From NCBI GenBank assembly GCA_017937385.1, contig JAGBDR010000006.1, positions 1 through 64,000 on the forward strand: a DNA stretch of 64,000 nucleotides. Direction: 5' to 3'. Position numbers and translations under genes: made by a program. Each line of letters begins with the position of its first letter. Position 1 is the stretch's first letter. The notes below the pieces were generated by a model. The model was not told where the DNA came from and made no database searches. It was given only the letters and a program-made list of their open reading frames with translations. Origin of the DNA: Parabacteroides sp. GTDB lineage: Bacteria; Bacteroidota; Bacteroidia; Bacteroidales; Tannerellaceae. This document shows positions 29,225-60,480 of this stretch, one piece after another.

Positions 29225-29232
29225 TATATTTG
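29225..29232 (+). promoter_or_regulatory. -7 box for the LytTR/FHA/kinase cluster
   Basis: TATATTTG matches TAnnTTTG, 35 bp before the LytTR ATG at 29268. No convincing -33 element is seen. Confidence 0.5.
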
Positions 29233-29267: not shown

Positions 29268-29660
29268 ATGGAGCGATATTTAATAATTAAGACGAGAGAT
29301 GAATTGTTGCGTATTAAAATAGGGCAGATCCTCTATTTTGAGGCGGATAGAAATTATACCAAATTACTATTATCCAATGGAATCCAATTCACATTTGCAA
29401 TCAATATAGGAAAGATAGAAGAAATATTGGAGAAACAGGTGGCAGGCTGTAACGCGATCTTGATGCGTGTCGGCAAAAGCCATATCATTAATAAGAATCA
29501 TATTTTGCAGATCAACTTGCCCAAACAGAAATTGCTGTTGTTGACGCAGGATGGCAAACCCAGAGAATTGGTGATATCCAAAGATCCTTTGAAGGCATTG
29601 AAAGATTCGCTTGAAAAGGAAATGGCAAAATCGGAAGAACCAAAAGCTGTTGCGGAATGA
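29268..29660 (+). CDS. LytTR DNA-binding domain protein
   Basis: A 130-residue protein that is nearly all LytTR domain: MERYLIIKTRDELLRIKIGQILYFEADRNYTKL, then LMRVGKSHIINKNHILQIN. There is no receiver domain, so it is not a classic two-component regulator. A charged tail (KDSLEKEMAKSEEPKAVAE) follows. Its last codons overlap the next ATG (ATGA at 29657), which ties it to the FHA gene. It may regulate the cluster in response to the kinase or phosphatase, an inference from gene order. Confidence 0.85.
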   Translation: MERYLIIKTRDELLRIKIGQILYFEADRNYTKLLLSNGIQFTFAINIGKIEEILEKQVAGCNAILMRVGKSHIINKNHILQINLPKQKLLLLTQDGKPRELVISKDPLKALKDSLEKEMAKSEEPKAVAE

Positions 29661-30310
29661 TCATCAAGATTGGAAAGGCAAGTGATAATGATTTCGTAGT
29701 AAACGACCCTCATGTGAGCCGTTACCATGCAAAGCTGGTGCGTGAAGAGGAGGGATGTTGGCTGCTTGAAGATTTGGGATCGACAAACGGGACATTTGTC
29801 AATAACGCCCAGATCGTGAGGAAACATGTTACTCCCAGCGATATGATCAAGCTGGGAGATCATTATGTGTTGGACATATCCGAAGCCCTGAAATCCAACA
29901 ATGATTATAGTGAAGAGTTTGCGGCTTTGAAGCAGGTGTACGATAATTATATTCAAGCAAAAGTTAAGATACAATCGTCCAACCAGTTTAAAACCAGGCT
30001 GTTTCAGTCCCTACCATTTGCCCTTCCCGGCATCGTGGGGGTTGTGATCGGCTTTTTGGGAAAAGGAAGTCCGGAGTTGTTCGGACTGAGCCTGTTTATC
30101 ACGATCTGCGCTCCGACGGTCGGAATCTATCTGGGAGCGAAGCAATCGGCCAAGATTCCGCAGCTTTTGCAAGACTTGACCAATCAATTCAAAATCGACT
30201 ATGTTTGCCCCAAGTGCGGAACCTTTTTGGGGGAAATACCTTGGGAATCATTGCGCAACAGAAAACAATGTCCGATGTCGTCCTGCAAGGCTAAATGGGT
30301 GAGCGAGTAG
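29657..30310 (+). CDS. FHA domain membrane protein with C-terminal zinc ribbon
   Basis: 217 residues. An FHA phosphothreonine-binding domain occupies 1-80: IKIGKASDNDFVVNDPHVSRYHAKLV and LLEDLGSTNGTFVNN hold the conserved G-R/K, SRYHA and NGT positions. A helical linker follows, then two hydrophobic segments (about 122-160). A four-Cys zinc ribbon ends the protein (CPKCGTFLG ... CPMSSCKAKW). It overlaps LytTR by 4 bp. It probably sits in the inner membrane and binds a phosphorylated partner made by the kinase at 32061. Confidence 0.85.
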   Translation: MIIKIGKASDNDFVVNDPHVSRYHAKLVREEEGCWLLEDLGSTNGTFVNNAQIVRKHVTPSDMIKLGDHYVLDISEALKSNNDYSEEFAALKQVYDNYIQAKVKIQSSNQFKTRLFQSLPFALPGIVGVVIGFLGKGSPELFGLSLFITICAPTVGIYLGAKQSAKIPQLLQDLTNQFKIDYVCPKCGTFLGEIPWESLRNRKQCPMSSCKAKWVSE

Positions 30311-30386
30311 GAACTGTTTCATATATTAAAAGTAATGCTTTCGTACAGTAAACCCAAACATTTGATTATAAGGAACCTATTTTGTG

Positions 30387-30416
30387 TTTGGATATCACCC
30401 TGTTTCCTTACTTTTG
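30387..30416 (+). promoter_or_regulatory. Consensus promoter upstream of the acidic peptide gene
   Basis: TTTG (30387-30390), 18 bp spacer, TACTTTTG (30409-30416): the best full -33/-7 match in the cluster. It would drive the acidic peptide and downstream genes separately from LytTR-FHA. Confidence 0.7.
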
Positions 30417-30443
30417 TTTCCGGAAATTTTAATTATAACATTT

Positions 30444-30683
30444 ATGCAAGAAGAGGATTACACATTTGTGACTTTAGACAGCGACGACGTCATGTCGACT
30501 GACGCTGTTATCGTGGATGTGGACGGGGAAAACGACTTGTCTGATGTTGTAATGATTGACGAAAGCATGGATGTTTCCGATTTTATTACATTATCTGACG
30601 ACACCGTGATGCTGTCCGATGCAGACATGTTGGATACATATTCAACCGATATTGACGGATCTGATATATCGTTTATCGTATGA
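30444..30683 (+). CDS. Small highly acidic protein, candidate FHA/kinase scaffold
   Basis: 79 residues from the ATG at 30444: 20 Asp and 4 Glu and not one Lys, Arg or His. Hydrophobic residues alternate with Asp/Ser/Thr in short repeats such as LSDDTVMLSDADMLD. Two TxxD sites (T49-L-S-D, T68-D-I-D) match the pTxxD preference known for some FHA domains. It is flanked by FHA proteins and followed by phosphatase and kinase genes. Its stop overlaps the next start (ATGA at 30680), strong evidence that it is translated. I know no family for it. Role as a phospho-acceptor or docking scaffold is inference. Confidence 0.75.
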   Translation: MQEEDYTFVTLDSDDVMSTDAVIVDVDGENDLSDVVMIDESMDVSDFITLSDDTVMLSDADMLDTYSTDIDGSDISFIV

Positions 30684-31195
30684 TTTCCATTAAATGTCCA
30701 CATTGCCATGTAGGGTTGAAGGTAGACGAGGGGAAAATTCCCCTCGATATCACCTCTTTCAAATGTCCGAAGTGCAAACAGCCGATTCCGGTTTCCTTGT
30801 TGTCTGTGGAGAAAGAAAGTGTTGCATCTGAATCGGAAACGGTTCTGATACAGCCTCTTCGCCTGACAACGGGGCGTATCTCCGTAATTGCGAATGCTGA
30901 TACGCCGGAACAGACTTTCCCCCTTCAGGAAGGTGTTTATATTATTGGACGAAAATCCAGTGCATCTGCCGCTACGATCGGTATTGTGACGGCAGATAAA
31001 TCCATGAGCCGGGAACATATCCGGATCGAGGTGAAAAAAGATGCCAAAGGAGGTTATAAACATTACCTTTCTGACAATAATAGCAAGAATCATACGTTAT
31101 ATAATAGCAATTACTTGAAGGATGGAGAAATTGTCATACTCAATAATAATGATGAAATTATTATCGGTCGTACAGTTCTCCGGTTTAATGAATAA
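30680..31195 (+). CDS. Zinc-ribbon and FHA domain protein
   Basis: 171 residues. N-terminal MJ0042-like zinc ribbon (IKCPHCHVGLKVDEG ... FKCPKCKQPIP), a Ser/Glu-rich linker, then an FHA domain from about 70 to the end: YIIGRKSSASAATIGIV, KSMSREHIRIEV, DNNSKNHTLYNSNYL. The usual NG-T position is replaced by NSKNHT. Soluble, no signal peptide. Translationally coupled to the acidic protein; probably the cytosolic reader of phosphothreonine in this cluster. Confidence 0.85.
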   Translation: MISIKCPHCHVGLKVDEGKIPLDITSFKCPKCKQPIPVSLLSVEKESVASESETVLIQPLRLTTGRISVIANADTPEQTFPLQEGVYIIGRKSSASAATIGIVTADKSMSREHIRIEVKKDAKGGYKHYLSDNNSKNHTLYNSNYLKDGEIVILNNNDEIIIGRTVLRFNE

Positions 31196-31209
31196 AAATA
31201 GTCTATGCT

Positions 31210-32013
31210 ATGAATATAACGATCGGCAAACCTTGGGCTGTCAGTGAAAAAGGAGGCAGGTTGAATAATGAAGATTCCATCTATCCTCTGGCGGAAACGG
31301 CAAATTCCAATCAAAATTTGTTTTTGGTATGTGATGGTGTCGGTGGCGCTGAGAAAGGAGAGATCGCAAGTGCGTTGGCTTGTGAGTCTTTCCAATCCTT
31401 TTTTTCCACCTTTCGGGAAGGTGAGCCGAGTGCCGATTTTATAAATAGGGCCATCCGCTATGCCGAAGCACGTTTTGATGATTATGTGGCGGTTCATCCT
31501 GAAGCCAAGGGCATGGCGACGACTCTGACCATGACTTTTATCGGGTCGGCGGGCATCTCTTTGGCGCACGTCGGGGACAGCCGGATTTATCACTTCCGGA
31601 AAGGGCACATCTTGTACCAGACCGAAGACCATTCGTTGGTCAATTCGTGGGTCAGATTAGGTAAAATCACTCCTGAAGAGGCCGTGAACCACCCGCAGCG
31701 GAATGTAATCGTACGGGCTATCCAAGGGACGGAACATCCGACGGAAGCCGATGTCGTGCTTCTGAACGACATCCAGGCTGGCGATTACTTGTTTATGTGT
31801 TCGGACGGCGTGCTTGAGCGGATCAACAATGAGGAGTTGTCCGATATATTCAAGCGTTCAAGTTGCCCGGAAGAAATTAAAAATGCAATCATGGCCGCTT
31901 GTAGTGGAAAAACACGCGATAACTTTTCTTTTTATATCATACCCATACAAAATGTGTTAGATTCTGCCGGATTTAAGCAAAATATTCTTTCATTCCTTTA
32001 TTCTTTTATATAA
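31210..32013 (+). CDS. PP2C-family Ser/Thr protein phosphatase
   Basis: 267 residues. PPM metal-site motifs are in order: NNEDSIYP, LVCDGVGGAEKGEIAS, AHVGDSRIYHFRKG, TEDHSLVNSWVRLGKI, and MCSDGVLERINNEEL, with a final Asp in GKTRDNFSFYII. Cytosolic. It is 14 bp behind the FHA gene and 47 bp before the kinase, and so is the likely eraser of marks placed by that kinase. Confidence 0.92.
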   Translation: MNITIGKPWAVSEKGGRLNNEDSIYPLAETANSNQNLFLVCDGVGGAEKGEIASALACESFQSFFSTFREGEPSADFINRAIRYAEARFDDYVAVHPEAKGMATTLTMTFIGSAGISLAHVGDSRIYHFRKGHILYQTEDHSLVNSWVRLGKITPEEAVNHPQRNVIVRAIQGTEHPTEADVVLLNDIQAGDYLFMCSDGVLERINNEELSDIFKRSSCPEEIKNAIMAACSGKTRDNFSFYIIPIQNVLDSAGFKQNILSFLYSFI

Positions 32014-32019
32014 ATAGTG

Positions 32020-32027
32020 TAATTTTG
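32020..32027 (+). promoter_or_regulatory. Possible internal -7 box before the kinase
   Basis: TAATTTTG matches TAnnTTTG in the 47-bp gap between phosphatase and kinase. It could let kinase level vary independently. Confidence 0.35.
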
Positions 32028-32060
32028 GCAGATTAATCGAATTGCGCATATAGTATAGTT

Positions 32061-33896
32061 ATGAATTTGCCAAACGGACACGTTCTTCAGAATGGAAAAT
32101 ATCGGATCACTCATGTAATTGGTCAGGGCGGCTTTGGTATAACTTACAAAGGTGTCTGGTATACGGAAGTGAAGGGCTCGTTAGGAACTGTGCAAACAGA
32201 GGTGCCTATTTGTATAAAAGAATACTTCTTTAAAGACTATTGTTACAGAGAAACGGAATCGTTTGCTGTCAAGGTACACTCCGAGACGGGCAGGATTCTA
32301 TTTGATAAATTCAAGGAGAAACTGATCAAGGAGGCCAAGATCCTTTCTGAAGTCCACCATCCCCATATCGTGAATGTGCTGGAAGTTTTCGAAGAAAACG
32401 ACACGGCCTATATTGCCATGGAATATATCTCCGGCTGCTCCCTCAAATACAAGATGGACCGGGAAGGAATATTGCCGGAAGCGAAAGTGCTTGGATATGT
32501 GCGCCAAATCGGAGAAGCACTTCAGTTTGTACATGAAAAGAATATCCTTCACTTGGATATCAAGCCCAGCAATATCCTGATCGACTCGTCAGGGAAAGCA
32601 CGTCTGATCGATTTCGGCGTAAGCAAGCGATACGATATCAAGCAACAGGAAACCAGTACGACCATGCTCACCTTGTCGAAAGGTTTTGCTTCGATCGAAC
32701 AATATGACAATGAAGGGACACAGAGTTTTTCTCCTTGTCCGGATATCTATTCGTTGGGCGCGACCATGTACAATCTTCTGACAGGTAGGATTCCGACCGA
32801 ATCCATTTTGCGGGCGACACGTCCTTTGCGGAATCCGTCGGAATTGAATCCGGGTATATCCCCGAAGACGGAATCCGCCATCATCAAGGCCATGCAAATC
32901 ATTCCGGCCGACCGTTTCCAGACGGTAGCTGAAATGATGGCAGCATTGGATTTTCCGCCGGAAGAGGAAATGCCGGCAGGCGGATTACAAAATGTGGATG
33001 GGCCGGCCGTGGAGGATGAAACAATGGTCATACATCAGAATGAAAAATCGTTTCAGGGTGAGAACGACGAAGAACGTACGGTTCTGAATAATGATACGGT
33101 TGAAGAGATGACCGTTCAGCCCCGTAAGAAAAAAAGAAAAAGGGTGTTGATATCCGTGGTTATAACGATATTGGCCTGTATAGGATTAGCATTCATTTTT
33201 TGGGTGCAAGGAAACAAGGTCTCCACGAAACCGGGTGTGGCGGAGTTGACAACTCCGGCTGAAGAGGAGAACGATTCAGAATCTTCCTTGCCGGCAACAA
33301 TCGTTCCGGAGGTGAAAGAAGAACCTTTGCCTGAGGAGAAAGATCCGCATACGGAAACAGAAATAGCGCAACAGCCGGAAAATGATGCCCCTGTTGCTGT
33401 TGACGAACCTCGGAAACAGCCGGAAACCAGGCCGCTTCAGGCTGAAGAGAATAAAACAGCGATACAACCGGCACAGCCTACTGTTGAAGAAACGGAGGCG
33501 GAATATGCCGCTTTGATAGCTTCCGGCAAGGAGAGGATGGAGAAAGCTGATTTTACAGGTGCAAAGAAAGATTTCACGAAAGCGAAAGAAACCAAGTTGA
33601 CAGAAGAGGTCGTGCGCCTCCTGATCGCTTGCGATGAGAAGGAAGCTGCCCAACTCTTGGCCGACAGGAAAGCTCAATATGAGATGAAAAATACGTTTGG
33701 GAATTTTACAATTGTACGAAAGAAATCGACCATGCTCTACGGGGCGATTGATTCGGAAGCCAACGAACGCATTCCGTGCAAATATGGGAATGTCGGGATT
33801 GCTGAAAACGGTCGTGCTTTCGAACGTAAAGATGGTTTGTTTGATATTTATAATGCTGATGGTGTATTGATAAATGAAGGATCAACCTATTATTAA
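32061..33896 (+). CDS. Transmembrane Ser/Thr protein kinase with C-terminal WG-like repeats
   Basis: 611 residues. Kinase domain about 14-290: glycine loop GQGGFG (21-26), ATP Lys K53 in ICIKEYF, catalytic HLDIKPSN (H164-N171, HLD instead of HRD), and DFG at 184-186 followed by a TMLTLSKGFASIEQY activation segment. A Glu-rich juxtamembrane region with TMVI/TVL sites leads to one hydrophobic segment (about 361-382). The outer part is Pro/Glu-rich, then helical (EEYAALIASGKERMEKADF-like, TPR-type), then degenerate WG repeats (YGAIDSEANERIPCKYGNVG). The HLD loop is common in bacterial Hanks kinases lacking the Arg and still active. It probably senses an envelope state and phosphorylates cytosolic targets read by the FHA proteins. 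Confidence 0.92.
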   Translation: MNLPNGHVLQNGKYRITHVIGQGGFGITYKGVWYTEVKGSLGTVQTEVPICIKEYFFKDYCYRETESFAVKVHSETGRILFDKFKEKLIKEAKILSEVHHPHIVNVLEVFEENDTAYIAMEYISGCSLKYKMDREGILPEAKVLGYVRQIGEALQFVHEKNILHLDIKPSNILIDSSGKARLIDFGVSKRYDIKQQETSTTMLTLSKGFASIEQYDNEGTQSFSPCPDIYSLGATMYNLLTGRIPTESILRATRPLRNPSELNPGISPKTESAIIKAMQIIPADRFQTVAEMMAALDFPPEEEMPAGGLQNVDGPAVEDETMVIHQNEKSFQGENDEERTVLNNDTVEEMTVQPRKKKRKRVLISVVITILACIGLAFIFWVQGNKVSTKPGVAELTTPAEEENDSESSLPATIVPEVKEEPLPEEKDPHTETEIAQQPENDAPVAVDEPRKQPETRPLQAEENKTAIQPAQPTVEETEAEYAALIASGKERMEKADFTGAKKDFTKAKETKLTEEVVRLLIACDEKEAAQLLADRKAQYEMKNTFGNFTIVRKKSTMLYGAIDSEANERIPCKYGNVGIAENGRAFERKDGLFDIYNADGVLINEGSTYY

Positions 33897-33903
33897 TGTG
33901 TGT

Positions 33904-34851
33904 ATGAATAGACTTTGGATTTTGATTCTTTTTGTTGTGTTGCCGATCGGTTTGTCGGCCCAGCAAAAAGCGGAATATAACAGGAAAGGCGACGAGGCGA
34001 TGAAACGCCTTGACTACAGTGATGCAAGAATGTGGTATGAAGAGGGAGTCGTGCAATGTGACCCTTACAGTATCAGGCAGCTTACGTCGATTTGGTTGTC
34101 CAACCGGCAGATGCGTCCTTCGATGCATAGTTTGATGAACAAGTGTCGGACGTGTCTGGAACTGATGGCCAACAACAAGGATACGACCGCTATTTCGCAG
34201 TTGGTGACCTATTATACCGAAGGCATAGGAACGGCCAAAAATGAAACTTTGGCAAAATCCTGGCAAGACCGGTTGGAAGCAATCCGTAAACCGGCGGAAC
34301 CCGTTTTTTACCCTTCTGCCCATCCGGCAAAACCGGATAAGCCTAAAGAACCGATGAAGTTCTTCGTCGGTTATGCCTATTCGATGGAAAGCCCCTATGG
34401 TTTGACCGTGGGAGGCGTGAAGTCACGGTTAGGGTGGTTTGTACGTTTTAAGACCAACTTGGGTTTTGATGGCTATACCGGTGAGTGCCGGGGGACAGAT
34501 GAATATGTCGGGACGGTTCCCGATAGTCCGTTTCGCTTCACGAACAAAAAGAAGGTGAACAGTTATATCGGAACGGCCGGTCTGGTTGTGAAATGTACAT
34601 CCTGGCTTTATACATCCGTCGGTTTGGGATACGGGAACCGGGAATTGTTGTGCGAATATAACACAATCGACAATTCGGATTATAGGATCGAAAAATCCTA
34701 TTGGGCGAAGAATCTGGATTATTCGTATAGCGGATTGGCCGCCGATCTGGACGTGATGCTCAAGTTTGGTCCTGTGTTCATAAGCGGAGGATGTAATACG
34801 TTGAATTTTAAATATATTGATTTGAATGCCGGTGTCGGTCTGTTTTTCTAA
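33904..34851 (+). CDS. Outer-membrane-type beta protein with N-terminal Sel1/TPR region
   Basis: 315 residues from the ATG at 33904, which gives signal peptide MNRLWILILFVVLPIGLSAQ; an earlier ATG at 33874 overlaps the kinase end and adds a polar leader. Residues 20-125 are TPR/Sel1-like (AEYNRKGDEAMKRLDYSDARMWYEEG). The second half has alternating strands with aromatic ends (FFVGYAYSMESPYGLTVGG, WLYTSVGLGYGN, YIDLNAGVGLFF), like a small beta-barrel. The C-terminal Phe fits outer-membrane insertion. Likely the envelope partner of the kinase. Confidence 0.72.
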   Translation: MNRLWILILFVVLPIGLSAQQKAEYNRKGDEAMKRLDYSDARMWYEEGVVQCDPYSIRQLTSIWLSNRQMRPSMHSLMNKCRTCLELMANNKDTTAISQLVTYYTEGIGTAKNETLAKSWQDRLEAIRKPAEPVFYPSAHPAKPDKPKEPMKFFVGYAYSMESPYGLTVGGVKSRLGWFVRFKTNLGFDGYTGECRGTDEYVGTVPDSPFRFTNKKKVNSYIGTAGLVVKCTSWLYTSVGLGYGNRELLCEYNTIDNSDYRIEKSYWAKNLDYSYSGLAADLDVMLKFGPVFISGGCNTLNFKYIDLNAGVGLFF

Positions 34852-34863
34852 TAAGAATAGTTT

Positions 34864-37062
34864 ATGAAATATATATACTCAATCATTTTGTCGGCTGTTT
34901 CATTTATATGGCTGCTTTCCGGATGTGTGGAAGATCCGGATATGGTTACTCGCTTGCAGAATGCAAAGGCCCCGGAAGTTTCCGAGACTTCATTGGAAGG
35001 GAACATAGAGGCCTCTTCGATTACATTGAAAGTCCAAATCCTAAAGGAGAATGGTTTGCCAATCCGAGAATGCGGGGTGTGCTGGAGCATCCAAGAGGAG
35101 ACACGGCCGATTGACAATATGCGTAGCAAGCGATACGTGAAAGCGGATAAAATTGAGGACCATCATTTTACCGTTTCAATGTCCGGACTGGAAGATAGTA
35201 CAAAATATTATGTCTACGCCTACGCCATCAATGATATCGATACGGCTTTCTCCAAGACAGAGGGCGTTTATACGACGATAAAAGGTACGGGTGAAGTGGC
35301 GACACTGGATGTGGACAGTGCGACAGTGAAAGCCACTTCCGCTTGGGTGAAAGGTAAGGTTAAGAGCCGAGGCGTCGGAATTGACAAATTGGGTTTTTAT
35401 TATCAGAAAAAGGAACTTGCCGGAGGAAAGGAACTTTCGGATCAGGATTCCATTATCACATACGAGGGAGGCGACTTGGCTGTTGTCGATACCTTCTCCT
35501 GCCAGATTACGAATCTGGAACCGGCGACTTGGTATTATGTCCGTGCTTTTGCTAAAAACCGATTCGGTGAGTTCGCTTTCAATGTCGATTCTTTCAAGAC
35601 GACAGACGGTAAGCCGCAAGTGGGCAGATTGAGTCTGACCAATACGACATTTACTACAGCCGATCTGTCGGCCTTCTTGATAAACGAAGGGGATGCAACG
35701 GTTACGGCTTACGGCTTTTGCTGGAGTGTCAAGGAAAAACCGACGATAGAGGCCGACACGATTATCTGTACGAATTATACGGACGATGGTGAATTTTCGG
35801 GACAAATCCGAGATTTGAAGCCGGCCCAGAAATATTTTGCGAGGGCGTATGCTACGAATCGATTCGGTACGGTATATAGCGAAGAAGAAATGACGATTTC
35901 AACCAAAAGCGAGATCCCCAATATCATCACCTTCCCAGTCACAACCGACTCGATCAAGAGCGATGGAACGGTACATATCGGTGGAGAGTTGCAGAACGGA
36001 GGAAACAGTGCTGCCATGGAGTGGGGTATTTGCTGGTCTTCAAATAATAAGGAACCGGATATCAACAAGGACGACCGTATTGTGGTGGAAGACACGCTTT
36101 TTATGTATGCTTTGCCGGCATTGAAAGGTGCGATGACCTATTACGTAAGAGCTTATGCCAAAAACGAAAAGGGTTTGGTCGGATATGGTCAAGTACAAAC
36201 TTTCAAGACTCCTAACATTTTCACGGAAAAGAGAATATACGAAGGAGATGCCCGTCAATATTCGTCCAGTTTTACGTTAAACGGACAAGCCTTTGTTGTG
36301 GGAGGAGATTTAGGAGGCAAGCGCAGCAACGAGCTTTTCAGCTATGATGTGGAAACGGATGTATGGAAATCCCAGCAAGAATGTAATGTGGCTTATTCAC
36401 ACATGGCAGCCATCGCATACGGTGACAGGGCTTATCTCATCGGAGGGCTTGACAAGCAAACTGGGACGGAATGCCAGGTCTACACATCTGAAAATAGTTG
36501 GTTGCCCGAATTTCCATCTTTGCCGACAGGACGGTTTAACTCGGTCAGCTTCGTCTATCGCGATTCTTTGTACGTTTTTGGTGGTACGGACAATAGCAGT
36601 AACCTGAGTGAAATAGTCCGTTATGATCTTTCTACTGGAAACGTCGGGGAATGGGGTACGATTGCTAAAGTAAGCGAAGCGAACCAAAGAGGAGGAGTCG
36701 CGTTTGTCGTGGACGACAAAGTCTATGCCGGCCTGGGAGAAAAGGGAAGTGGTATCCGTAACGACTTCTATGTCTCTTCGGACAGTTTGAAGGAATGGAC
36801 ACCTGTTCCTTCGATACCTGTGCAACTTGGGGTTGTCTCATCTGGTGTTTATGACGAACAGCGGAAAAGCTTCTTCCTGATAGACAACAACGGAAAGATC
36901 TGGGAATATAACTTACCGTTGAAACAATGGAAACCCCGTTCTTTGTGGATCCGCATGAAGAACTACCACATGTTCATACTGGACGGAACAATTTATATTT
37001 TGGGGCAGGACATCTACCAGAAGAATAAGTTTATCATGTATAATCCTATTTGGGATAATTAA
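34864..37062 (+). CDS. Lipoprotein with FN3-like repeats and a Kelch propeller
   Basis: 732 residues. Signal and lipobox: MKYIYSIILSAVSFIWLLSGC. About four FN3-like repeats follow, each with GVCWS/GFCWS/GICWS-type strands and YYVRAYAKN endings. From about 455 a Kelch-like propeller reads AFVVGGDLGG ... ELFSYDVETDVWKS, AYLIGGLDKQTG, and LYVFGGTDNSSN. It is probably anchored in the outer membrane and may bind a ligand at the cell surface. It is 12 bp behind the barrel protein and 2 bp before cysE, so all are co-transcribed. Confidence 0.85.
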   Translation: MKYIYSIILSAVSFIWLLSGCVEDPDMVTRLQNAKAPEVSETSLEGNIEASSITLKVQILKENGLPIRECGVCWSIQEETRPIDNMRSKRYVKADKIEDHHFTVSMSGLEDSTKYYVYAYAINDIDTAFSKTEGVYTTIKGTGEVATLDVDSATVKATSAWVKGKVKSRGVGIDKLGFYYQKKELAGGKELSDQDSIITYEGGDLAVVDTFSCQITNLEPATWYYVRAFAKNRFGEFAFNVDSFKTTDGKPQVGRLSLTNTTFTTADLSAFLINEGDATVTAYGFCWSVKEKPTIEADTIICTNYTDDGEFSGQIRDLKPAQKYFARAYATNRFGTVYSEEEMTISTKSEIPNIITFPVTTDSIKSDGTVHIGGELQNGGNSAAMEWGICWSSNNKEPDINKDDRIVVEDTLFMYALPALKGAMTYYVRAYAKNEKGLVGYGQVQTFKTPNIFTEKRIYEGDARQYSSSFTLNGQAFVVGGDLGGKRSNELFSYDVETDVWKSQQECNVAYSHMAAIAYGDRAYLIGGLDKQTGTECQVYTSENSWLPEFPSLPTGRFNSVSFVYRDSLYVFGGTDNSSNLSEIVRYDLSTGNVGEWGTIAKVSEANQRGGVAFVVDDKVYAGLGEKGSGIRNDFYVSSDSLKEWTPVPSIPVQLGVVSSGVYDEQRKSFFLIDNNGKIWEYNLPLKQWKPRSLWIRMKNYHMFILDGTIYILGQDIYQKNKFIMYNPIWDN

Positions 37063-37064
37063 TC

Positions 37065-37952
37065 ATGAACCGGACAAAGATATTAGAAGAGATTCAAAAG
37101 AATGTAGAACTTCTGTCGGTTTCTGGTACAGCGGATTATAAATACATTCCGTTGCACCAGAAGCCGTCTCCCTCGGTGGCGGCGCTCAAGGAGATCATGA
37201 TCTTGCTCCGTAAGGTTATTTTCCCCGGTTTCTTCGGGACGGAGCAGGAGGCGCAGGCTGATTCTATACAATATTATACGGGTGTATATCTGGAGCAGAT
37301 CTACGATCTGTTGCAGGAACAAATCTATAACGGTTTGTGTTTTGAAGTCGAACGTTGTTGCGACTCCAAGGATCGTGCATCTGAAATAGCGATTGCTTTT
37401 ATCAATCAGGTCCCGCATATCAAATACCTGTTGTCAACGGATGTGAAAGCAATCTTGGATGGCGATCCCGCCGCCCAAAGTCCCAGTGAGATCATTTTTT
37501 GCTATCCGGCTATTCATGCCATTCTTCATCAACGGGTGGCACACGAGTTATTGAAACTCGGTGTGCCTGTGATCCCGCGTATTATCACAGAAATGGCTCA
37601 TTCGGATACGGGAATAGACATTCATCCGGGGGCGCAGATCGGAGAATATTTCAGTATTGACCATGGGACAGGTGTCGTGATCGGGGAAACGGCCATAATC
37701 GGAAACCATGTACGCCTTTACCAAGGAGTGACGTTGGGAGCAAAGAGTTTTACCCTGGATGAAAAGGGGTTGCCTTTGAATGTCCCGCGCCATCCGATTA
37801 TCGAAGACTCTGTTACGATCTATTCCAATACCTCTATATTAGGAAGGATCACGATCGGTCGCGGCTCTGTGATCGGTGGTAACATCTGGTTAACCCATAG
37901 TGTTCCGCCTGGTTCCAAAGTGTTGCAGACACGTGCTGTCGAAAATAAATGA
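37065..37952 (+). CDS. cysE: Serine O-acetyltransferase
   Basis: 295 residues. An N-terminal helical part leads to the left-handed hexapeptide helix: IHPGAQIGEYFSIDHGTGVV, IGETAIIGNHVRLYQGVTLG, and IGRGSVIGGNIWL. It acetylates L-serine with acetyl-CoA for cysteine synthesis. The length and the helical N-terminus resemble the plant/EpsC-like group. Only 2 bp separate it from the Kelch lipoprotein, which places a cysteine-synthesis enzyme at the end of the kinase operon; why is unclear. No sulfur-assimilation partner is adjacent. Confidence 0.92.
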   Translation: MNRTKILEEIQKNVELLSVSGTADYKYIPLHQKPSPSVAALKEIMILLRKVIFPGFFGTEQEAQADSIQYYTGVYLEQIYDLLQEQIYNGLCFEVERCCDSKDRASEIAIAFINQVPHIKYLLSTDVKAILDGDPAAQSPSEIIFCYPAIHAILHQRVAHELLKLGVPVIPRIITEMAHSDTGIDIHPGAQIGEYFSIDHGTGVVIGETAIIGNHVRLYQGVTLGAKSFTLDEKGLPLNVPRHPIIEDSVTIYSNTSILGRITIGRGSVIGGNIWLTHSVPPGSKVLQTRAVENK

Positions 37953-60180: not shown

Positions 60181-60257
60181 GGCCGCGTAGCTCAACTGAA
60201 TAGAGTAGCTGACTACGGATCAGCCGGTTACAGGTTTGAATCCTGTCGCGGTCACCA
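60181..60257 (+). tRNA. tRNA-Arg (ACG), copy 1
   Basis: Acceptor GGCCGCG pairs with CGCGGTC; D stem GCTC/GAGT; anticodon stem GCTGA/TCAGC with loop CTACGGA, anticodon ACG; T arm ACAGG-TTTGAAT-CCTGT. CCA is encoded. Confidence 0.93.
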
Positions 60258-60290
60258 TTTCAAGAGGCAGTTTAAACAAAAATGAAGATT

Positions 60291-60367
60291 GGCCGCGTAG
60301 CTCAACTGAATAGAGTAGCTGACTACGGATCAGCCGGTTACAGGTTTGAATCCTGTCGCGGTCACCA
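60291..60367 (+). tRNA. tRNA-Arg (ACG), copy 2
   Basis: Identical to copy 1 through the CCA. The spacer of 33 bp also resembles that after copy 2 (AGTTTAAACAAAAAT...AAGATT), so the whole unit was duplicated. Confidence 0.93.
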
Positions 60368-60400
60368 TTCAGATGAAGTTTAAACAAAAATATAAAGATT

Positions 60401-60474
60401 GGCCGCGTAGCTCAACTGAATAGAGTAGCTGACTACGGATCAGCCGGTTACAGGTTTGAATCCTGTCGCGGTCA
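60401..60474 (+). tRNA. tRNA-Arg (ACG), copy 3, CCA not encoded
   Basis: Identical 74-nt body, but the 3' end reads ACAA instead of ACCA, so CCA must be added enzymatically. Followed directly by a terminator. Confidence 0.92.
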
Positions 60475-60480
60475 CAAAAG

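Follow-up and report, generated by a model that had tools for sequence, protein, structure and literature searches.

What does a Hanks-type kinase sense, and what does it control, when its gene lies among those of a phosphatase, phosphothreonine readers, a DNA-binding regulator and envelope proteins? The question is raised by a 64,000-nucleotide stretch of a Parabacteroides sp. contig (JAGBDR010000006.1, positions 1 to 64,000; the window), in which inspection of open reading frames (ORFs) shows nine, all in the same direction (+), at 29268–37952. To our knowledge, the inputs or outputs of Hanks-type kinases of the Bacteroidota are rarely known. A term search of a 2018 review of bacterial Hanks kinases gave no word beginning 'Bacteroid' (PMC6213207). 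The genes listed by a first-pass annotation are all present: LytTR, an FHA membrane protein (FHA_TM), a 79-residue acidic peptide (acid79), a zinc-ribbon/FHA protein (ZnFHA), a PP2C phosphatase, a transmembrane kinase, a barrel-like protein, an FN3/Kelch lipoprotein and cysE. On balance we favor, with modest confidence, the reading that they form a phosphothreonine-gated, LytTR-controlled signaling operon that would run from the surface to DNA. The reading draws on gene content, synteny, recurring gene blocks, invariant catalytic and pocket residues, operator geometry and conserved threonine motifs, all of them properties of sequence.

A conserved eight-gene module

The genes from LytTR to the lipoprotein are one conserved eight-gene module, to which cysE is an optional addition. 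Of 66 named loci, 45 carry the complete series LytTR, FHA_TM, acid79, ZnFHA, PP2C, kinase, barrel and FN3/Kelch lipoprotein in this order, and cysE follows directly as the ninth gene in 21 of these 45. Among the 21 named loci in which the series is incomplete, 15 end no more than ~2 kb from the edge of the available DNA. The remaining loci are L102, L119, L130, L133 (where acid79 was detected by tblastn and missed by the hidden Markov model, HMM), L139 (where barrel and lipoprotein were not recognised) and L140. All eight genes are also found in 31 of 40 regions from relatives' genomes, which come from 39 of the 53 genomes matching FHA_TM; named loci and these regions belong partly to the same genomes (L102, for example, is G008). 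The nine-gene synteny first proposed therefore holds for eight genes, with cysE optional.

FHA_TM is matched at E 1e-10 in 34 of 38 genomes of the genus (its own included), in 16 of 20 other genomes of the family and in 3 of 40 genomes of other families; two of the family matches carry an internal stop (G040, G043). The closest named relatives by FHA_TM are Parabacteroides massiliensis (93% identity) and P. acidifaciens (92%), and 62 of the 66 named FHA_TM loci are labelled Parabacteroides, Tannerella, Massilibacteroides or Tannerellaceae. At E 0.01 the acid79 profile has matches in 85 of the 98 genomes of the family; in a sample of 393 genomes drawn from the order it matches five at E 1e-4, each of which belongs to the family. 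The module reaches slightly past the family, since G501 (locus L140) is counted to another family of the order.

Single scattered homologues, the pattern set beforehand as speaking against a module, were not what we saw: the gene order is shared as described, and the genes also tend to be missing together. Of the eight family genomes in which FHA_TM was not matched, G003 retains acid79 to barrel on a contig of 4.5 kb, and the other seven show neither a kinase orthologue at 1e-30 nor a PP2C orthologue at 1e-20. Completeness is 98–99% for G005 and G051 and 54–86% for the remaining five of these seven, so some of the co-absences may be assembly gaps.

The cluster is split in five genomes that retain the kinase, and three blocks recur: LytTR with FHA_TM; acid79 with ZnFHA and PP2C; and kinase with barrel and lipoprotein. 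LytTR-FHA_TM is separate from acid79-ZnFHA-PP2C-kinase-barrel-lipoprotein-cysE in G499 and G501, kinase-barrel-lipoprotein-cysE is separate from LytTR to PP2C in G498, and the cluster lies in three blocks in G046. In G057, on one contig, the kinase is ~358 kb from LytTR to PP2C, the positions of barrel and lipoprotein lying outside what was searched. cysE remains with the kinase block in four split genomes.

A predicted LytTR operator ahead of the kinase operon

The gap between FHA_TM and acid79 is 133 bp long, non-coding yet conserved. It is laid out as GTACAnnAA, 12 bp, then GATTATAAG (Parabacteroides) or GTACGTTAT (many Tannerella), and later TAnnTTTG, which we take to be a form of the Bacteroides −7 element. 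Alignments of the gap place a putative operator box 1, GTACAGTAA, at 30343..30351 (+), box 2, GATTATAAG, at 30364..30372 (+), 21 bp after box 1, and a −7-like element of the acid79 operon, TACTTTTG, at 30409..30416 (+), 66 bp after box 1. The −7 element of B. thetaiotaomicron is given as TATCTTTG (PMC6193735). The predicted operator thus has two 9-bp boxes with a 21-bp period, and these are clear repeats in many Tannerella loci. Known LytTR sites are paired 9-bp direct repeats 10–13 bp apart (PMC11347149), and in LytTR/membrane-protein pairs the repeats are mostly separated by 12 bp and lie immediately before the −35 (PMC6193735).

Box 1 and TAnnTTTG are 65 or 66 bp apart in 33 of 34 loci, the remaining locus being without the pair. 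The standard deviation of this spacing is 0.39, against 3.7 and 8.0 for the flanking segments (a ten- and twentyfold spread). When each distinct sequence is counted once (n = 80), the distance is 64 bp in 1, 65 bp in 43, 66 bp in 18, 76 bp in 5, 77 bp in 4 and 96–98 bp in 5, with none in 4, which puts 70 of 80 at 65/66 or 76/77 bp. In the 76–77 bp class, box 1 lies one turn of the helix farther away. Of the five long (96–98 bp) sequences, four begin with an additional box, 21 bp before a box at 76–77 bp; the fifth, G046, is not a clear operator. Some operators seem three-boxed, with a period of ~21–22 bp (L134, L137, L128 and L142, before acid79 or ZnFHA, and G499, locus L194, before acid79).

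A genome search allowing up to 3 mismatches found one site, and the reversed control pattern 9. The site scores 41 bits in the window against 7.8 for the next best, under a model built from relatives of the same site, and the scores of 33 intergenic operators centre on a median of 38 bits, with a minimum of 3.6 (a Tannerella-type site). The position weight matrix found no operator above 4.5 bits within 250 nt upstream of LytTR (37 loci). In G499 the operator travels with acid79 (66 bp) and not with LytTR-FHA_TM. We infer that a LytTR-type operator lies in the FHA_TM/acid79 gap, before the kinase's own operon, an element that is new in this analysis. The first-pass annotation had proposed a surface-to-cytosol signaling module; a single module it is, with its function inferred, and its direction is apparently surface-to-DNA, because the LytTR-type operator lies inside it.

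These results bear on another reading, which we consider unlikely: a post-translational phosphothreonine circuit like PpkA-PppA-Fha that directly controls an envelope process, with LytTR-FHA_TM as a separate neighboring pair. PpkA, PppA and Fha regulate type VI secretion post-translationally, and here too kinase, PP2C and FHA reader are encoded together (PMC3953482). The detachment of LytTR-FHA_TM in three genomes, and its presence without a close kinase in G500, fit such a circuit. The operator at a fixed distance before the kinase/phosphatase operon argues against it, as does the fact that LytTR-FHA_TM lies next to the other blocks wherever a named locus is whole (45 loci). The module also differs from the secretion pathway in its two FHA proteins, acidic peptide, LytTR and surface proteins, and Pfam finds no secretion gene among the nine, as first noted. 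A TssC search gave no match in the genome itself and likewise none in any of 14 control genomes.

A LytTR gene beside an FHA membrane-protein gene

LytTR (29268..29660, +; PF04397 3.3e-10) is a single-domain DNA-binding regulator of 130 residues, preceded by a −7-like element TAnnTTTG at 29225..29232 (+; alignment of 12 upstream regions). It is 91–96% identical in four close relatives, with a ratio of nonsynonymous to synonymous changes (pN/pS) of 0.04–0.08. FHA_TM (29657..30310, +; 217 residues) has an N-terminal FHA domain (PF00498 1.2e-18), two transmembrane segments by hydropathy and a C-terminal ribbon whose four cysteines are invariant in the alignment. The gap between the two genes is −11 to +26 nt in 35 of 37 loci and 399 and 1697 nt in the other two (starts in all cross-locus comparisons were chosen by script). 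One locus, G039 (L058 5917–8642), has ~1.7 kb between LytTR and FHA_TM, where a longer open frame contains a second FHA-like match. The motif residues G[K/R], S-R-x-H and S-x-N, which we take to form the phosphothreonine pocket of FHA domains, are invariant in 35 FHA_TM and 34 ZnFHA rows aligned. Sequence matches of FHA_TM in the PDB are only the FHA domains of Rv1747 and TB39.8 (1e-6); ZnFHA matched no PDB chain by sequence at E 0.01.

In LytTR regulatory systems (HdrRM, BrsRM) a co-encoded membrane protein restrains the LytTR regulator (PMC6193735). The module shares with them a soluble LytTR gene beside a membrane-protein gene and direct repeats ~12 bp apart upstream of a promoter. It differs in that its membrane protein has an FHA domain and a zinc ribbon, in that a kinase and a phosphatase are linked to it, and in that its repeats precede the next operon and not the LytTR-FHA_TM pair. 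The module thus appears to join a LytTR regulatory system to a kinase/PP2C/FHA circuit, both of them known devices.

LytTR could instead control the operon independently of phosphothreonine, with FHA_TM sensing something else and the kinase merely a target gene, as would suit the described systems, in which the membrane protein inhibits the regulator and the excerpt mentions no kinase (PMC6193735). The invariance of the FHA_TM pocket motif and the joint absence of FHA_TM, kinase and PP2C in 7 genomes make this, in our judgement, quite improbable.

Kinase, phosphatase and candidate phosphothreonine sites

The transmembrane Hanks kinase (32061..33896, +; Pkinase 2e-40) has HLD in place of HRD, one transmembrane segment by hydropathy and juxtamembrane phosphothreonine-like motifs. 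The C-terminal WG-like repeats ascribed to it amount to a sub-threshold Pfam match (0.017). PP2C lies at 31210..32013 (+; PP2C_2 1e-15, Pfam), and ZnFHA at 30680..31195 (+; Pfam FHA 6e-12, NCBIfam), with an MJ0042-type zinc ribbon, a linker with a conserved T54 and a C-terminal FHA domain. Among the aligned sequences, 32 kinases and 34 phosphatases, the key catalytic residues never vary. Kinase alignments and motif counts leave out four divergent kinases (L045, L063, L066, L067), other alignments leave out divergent or broken rows, and HMM builds omit divergent, truncated or X-bearing rows.

The linker from the kinase domain to the membrane can barely be aligned between orthologues. The pattern [DE][DE]T.[VILM] nevertheless occurs in 26 of 32 of these linkers (1.5 expected, at most 7 in 2000 shuffles), and the stricter [DE].T[TS][VILM][VILM] in 17 of 32 (0.18 expected, at most 3 in shuffles). 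In acid79 the first pattern occurs in 27 of 34 orthologues, around T54 in the window peptide (5.4 expected, at most 15 in 500 shuffles); it is found 0 times in 3204 residues of ten other proteins of the region. T54 of ZnFHA is conserved in 33 of 34, with an acidic residue at −1 in 30 of 34. Threonines in the juxtamembrane tail, in acid79 and in the ZnFHA linker are thus candidate phosphorylation sites and FHA ligands.

The tail ligands of the GarA, OdhI and DgcB FHA domains have Glu at −2, Ser at +1 and hydrophobic residues at +2/+3 (PMC6733907), and an ETTS motif occurs in FHA-binding tails (PMC8546545). The patterns of the module are similar, without the hydrophobic −3 of those tails. A docking precedent is PknG, which autophosphorylates its N-terminal extension at sites that recruit the FHA protein GarA (PMC8546545). 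ZnFHA shares with GarA, OdhI and DgcB a conserved threonine N-terminal to the FHA domain in acidic/hydrophobic surroundings; it differs in the zinc ribbon that precedes its linker. The NCBIfam OdhI model scores FHA_TM at 32.8 bits, below its cut-off of 200, and does not match ZnFHA.

Two further observations concern these families. A ZnFHA-type paralogue (L075 9248–9781, G000 contig C3) adjoins an exported protein with a trypsin-like N terminus, recognised by eye, and no module kinase or PP2C profile match was found within 20 kb around it. A defence system was considered for the module and set aside, PADLOC matches being obtained for the kinase only, to defence-system kinases (among the best 25 of 34 families).

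The acidic peptide acid79

acid79 (30444..30683, +) has no transmembrane segment by hydropathy and no Pfam, NCBIfam or PADLOC family match. The window peptide contains no Lys or Arg, as do 27 of 34 orthologues; Asp and Glu make up 27–33%, and Cys occurs in none. T7, F8, V9, D12, D46, I48, D52 and D74 are invariant and T10 and T49 nearly so; T7, T10, T49 and T54 are candidate phosphothreonine sites. With pN/pS of 0.07–0.19 against five relatives, acid79 is by all sequence indications a real gene under purifying selection. In 33 of 33 loci the end of acid79 and the start of ZnFHA share 4 nt, and the two are therefore probably translationally coupled. Of the ATGA overlaps first reported, this one (30680–30683) and that of LytTR with FHA_TM (29657–29660) are confirmed; that of kinase and barrel is probably a start-codon artefact (see below).

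An antisense ORF at 30458–31093 was rejected as a gene and taken as chance, because among 33 loci the longest open stretch on that strand ranges from 61 to 141 residues. Synonymous divergence (dS) against four close relatives is 0.33–0.59 for acid79 and 0.38–0.73 for ZnFHA, and 0.6–3 for most neighboring genes, perhaps reflecting high expression of the two.

Envelope proteins and cysE

The barrel-like protein (33904..34851, +) has a signal-type N terminus, a repeat-like N domain and a C domain ending in Phe whose barrel-like fold was judged by eye from alignment and hydropathy. Its ORF can start at 33874; in 20 of 24 aligned rows the script-chosen start is at the residue matching 33904, which is why the overlap with the kinase is probably an artefact. 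The lipoprotein (34864..37062, +) has FN3 and Kelch domains (Pfam Kelch, fn3) and a lipobox recognised by eye, and both proteins have hydrophobic N termini by hydropathy. The lipoprotein is 28–81% identical to its relatives, and LytTR 63–96% in main-type loci; such fast divergence fits a ligand-facing part.

The serine acetyltransferase-like cysE homologue (37065..37952, +; Pfam hexapeptide, cysE model 1e-45) scores 155.7 bits, under the curated cut-off of 210.65. Cysteine metabolism as the core function was rejected, as cysE is optional and a second homologue lies elsewhere in the genome (contig C105). The same evidence bears on a metabolic switch like GarA/OdhI, in which ZnFHA with its phosphorylatable linker would regulate an enzyme, perhaps a CysE-like protein. 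GarA, OdhI and DgcB have self-binding tails (PMC6733907; ETTS motif, PMC8546545), and cysE stays with the kinase block in four of the split genomes. No cysE lies beside the module in nine Tannerella/Massilibacteroides and two Parabacteroides loci with more than 3 kb of downstream DNA, and with the second homologue this renders such a switch the most doubtful of the alternatives, highly improbable as we see it.

Elsewhere in the window, three consecutive tRNA-Arg (acg) genes lie at 60181–60475.

Divergent clusters

Five divergent Bacteroidales clusters (L045 6582–13369, L063 4009–13365, L171 5510–17813, L176 8268–13017 and L177 5428–16268) have the same LytTR, FHA_TM, ZnFHA and PP2C families, with kinases in all but L176 (within the stretch available). 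Near ZnFHA or PP2C they encode an acidic protein of 308–324 residues, with an N-terminal EET in 4 of 5. Pfam identifies a caspase-like peptidase in L063, and inspection by eye points to one in L171, L176 and L177; L171 has an FGE-sulfatase/PEGA kinase and L045 an ADP-ribosylglycohydrolase. None gave a barrel or FN3/Kelch match, and the clusters may represent a separate signaling or conflict system. acid79 may be a trimmed relative of the long acidic protein, given a weak profile match: the HHalign score of the pair is 27.0, while 20 column shuffles reach no more than 16.0 and two reversed controls give 14.2 and 14.8. At a HHalign probability of 21% we regard this as suggestive and do not claim it.

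A proposed pathway from surface to DNA

In the pathway that we favor, the surface FN3/Kelch lipoprotein and the barrel-like envelope protein would sense an outside signal and influence the kinase through its periplasmic part. The kinase would phosphorylate threonines in its own juxtamembrane tail, in acid79 and in the ZnFHA linker, FHA domains would read them, and PP2C would reset the system. FHA_TM would be the membrane partner of LytTR, and phosphothreonine binding by its FHA domain would alter LytTR activity. LytTR would act at the two-box operator before acid79 and so control acid79, ZnFHA, PP2C, kinase, barrel, lipoprotein and often cysE. The sign of regulation is presumably activation, because the operator sits upstream of the promoter. 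As the controlled operon encodes the pathway, LytTR control would close a feedback loop.

Several observations weigh against this pathway. In Parabacteroides box 2 (GATTATAAG) is a weak repeat of box 1, and the constancy of spacing is partly common descent, the sequences being related. Described LytTR regulatory systems have such repeats ahead of the LytTR gene, where none were found here. No clear operator precedes acid79 in G501 and G046, and the moved kinase blocks of G498 and G046 have no GTAC box in the 260 nt upstream. The phosphothreonine motif was picked after the alignment had been viewed; the stricter kinase pattern occurs in 0 of 34 acid79 peptides, and the phosphothreonine patterns in only 0, 1 and 1 of 34 ZnFHA, in which the acid lies at −1 of T54 instead of −2. 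In G500 LytTR-FHA_TM is present and no kinase was matched at 1e-30, which argues against a strict unit.

A search of open-licence PMC papers, with subscription papers and preprints outside its scope, found no description of the locus, in agreement with the earlier suggestion that its form may be undescribed. The proposed pathway would mean that LytTR/membrane-protein pairs can be driven by phosphothreonine. A bolder reading, which we offer tentatively, is a new sensory class in which a surface antenna would control the kinase, acid79 would bridge the two FHA readers, and FHA_TM would release LytTR onto its own operon; if true, it would be a Hanks-kinase route from the outer surface to a promoter in one locus. 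One conserved package offers a candidate input, a kinase, a phosphatase, two readers, a likely adaptor peptide, a regulator and an operator, and the whole pathway is thus open to testing at a single locus.

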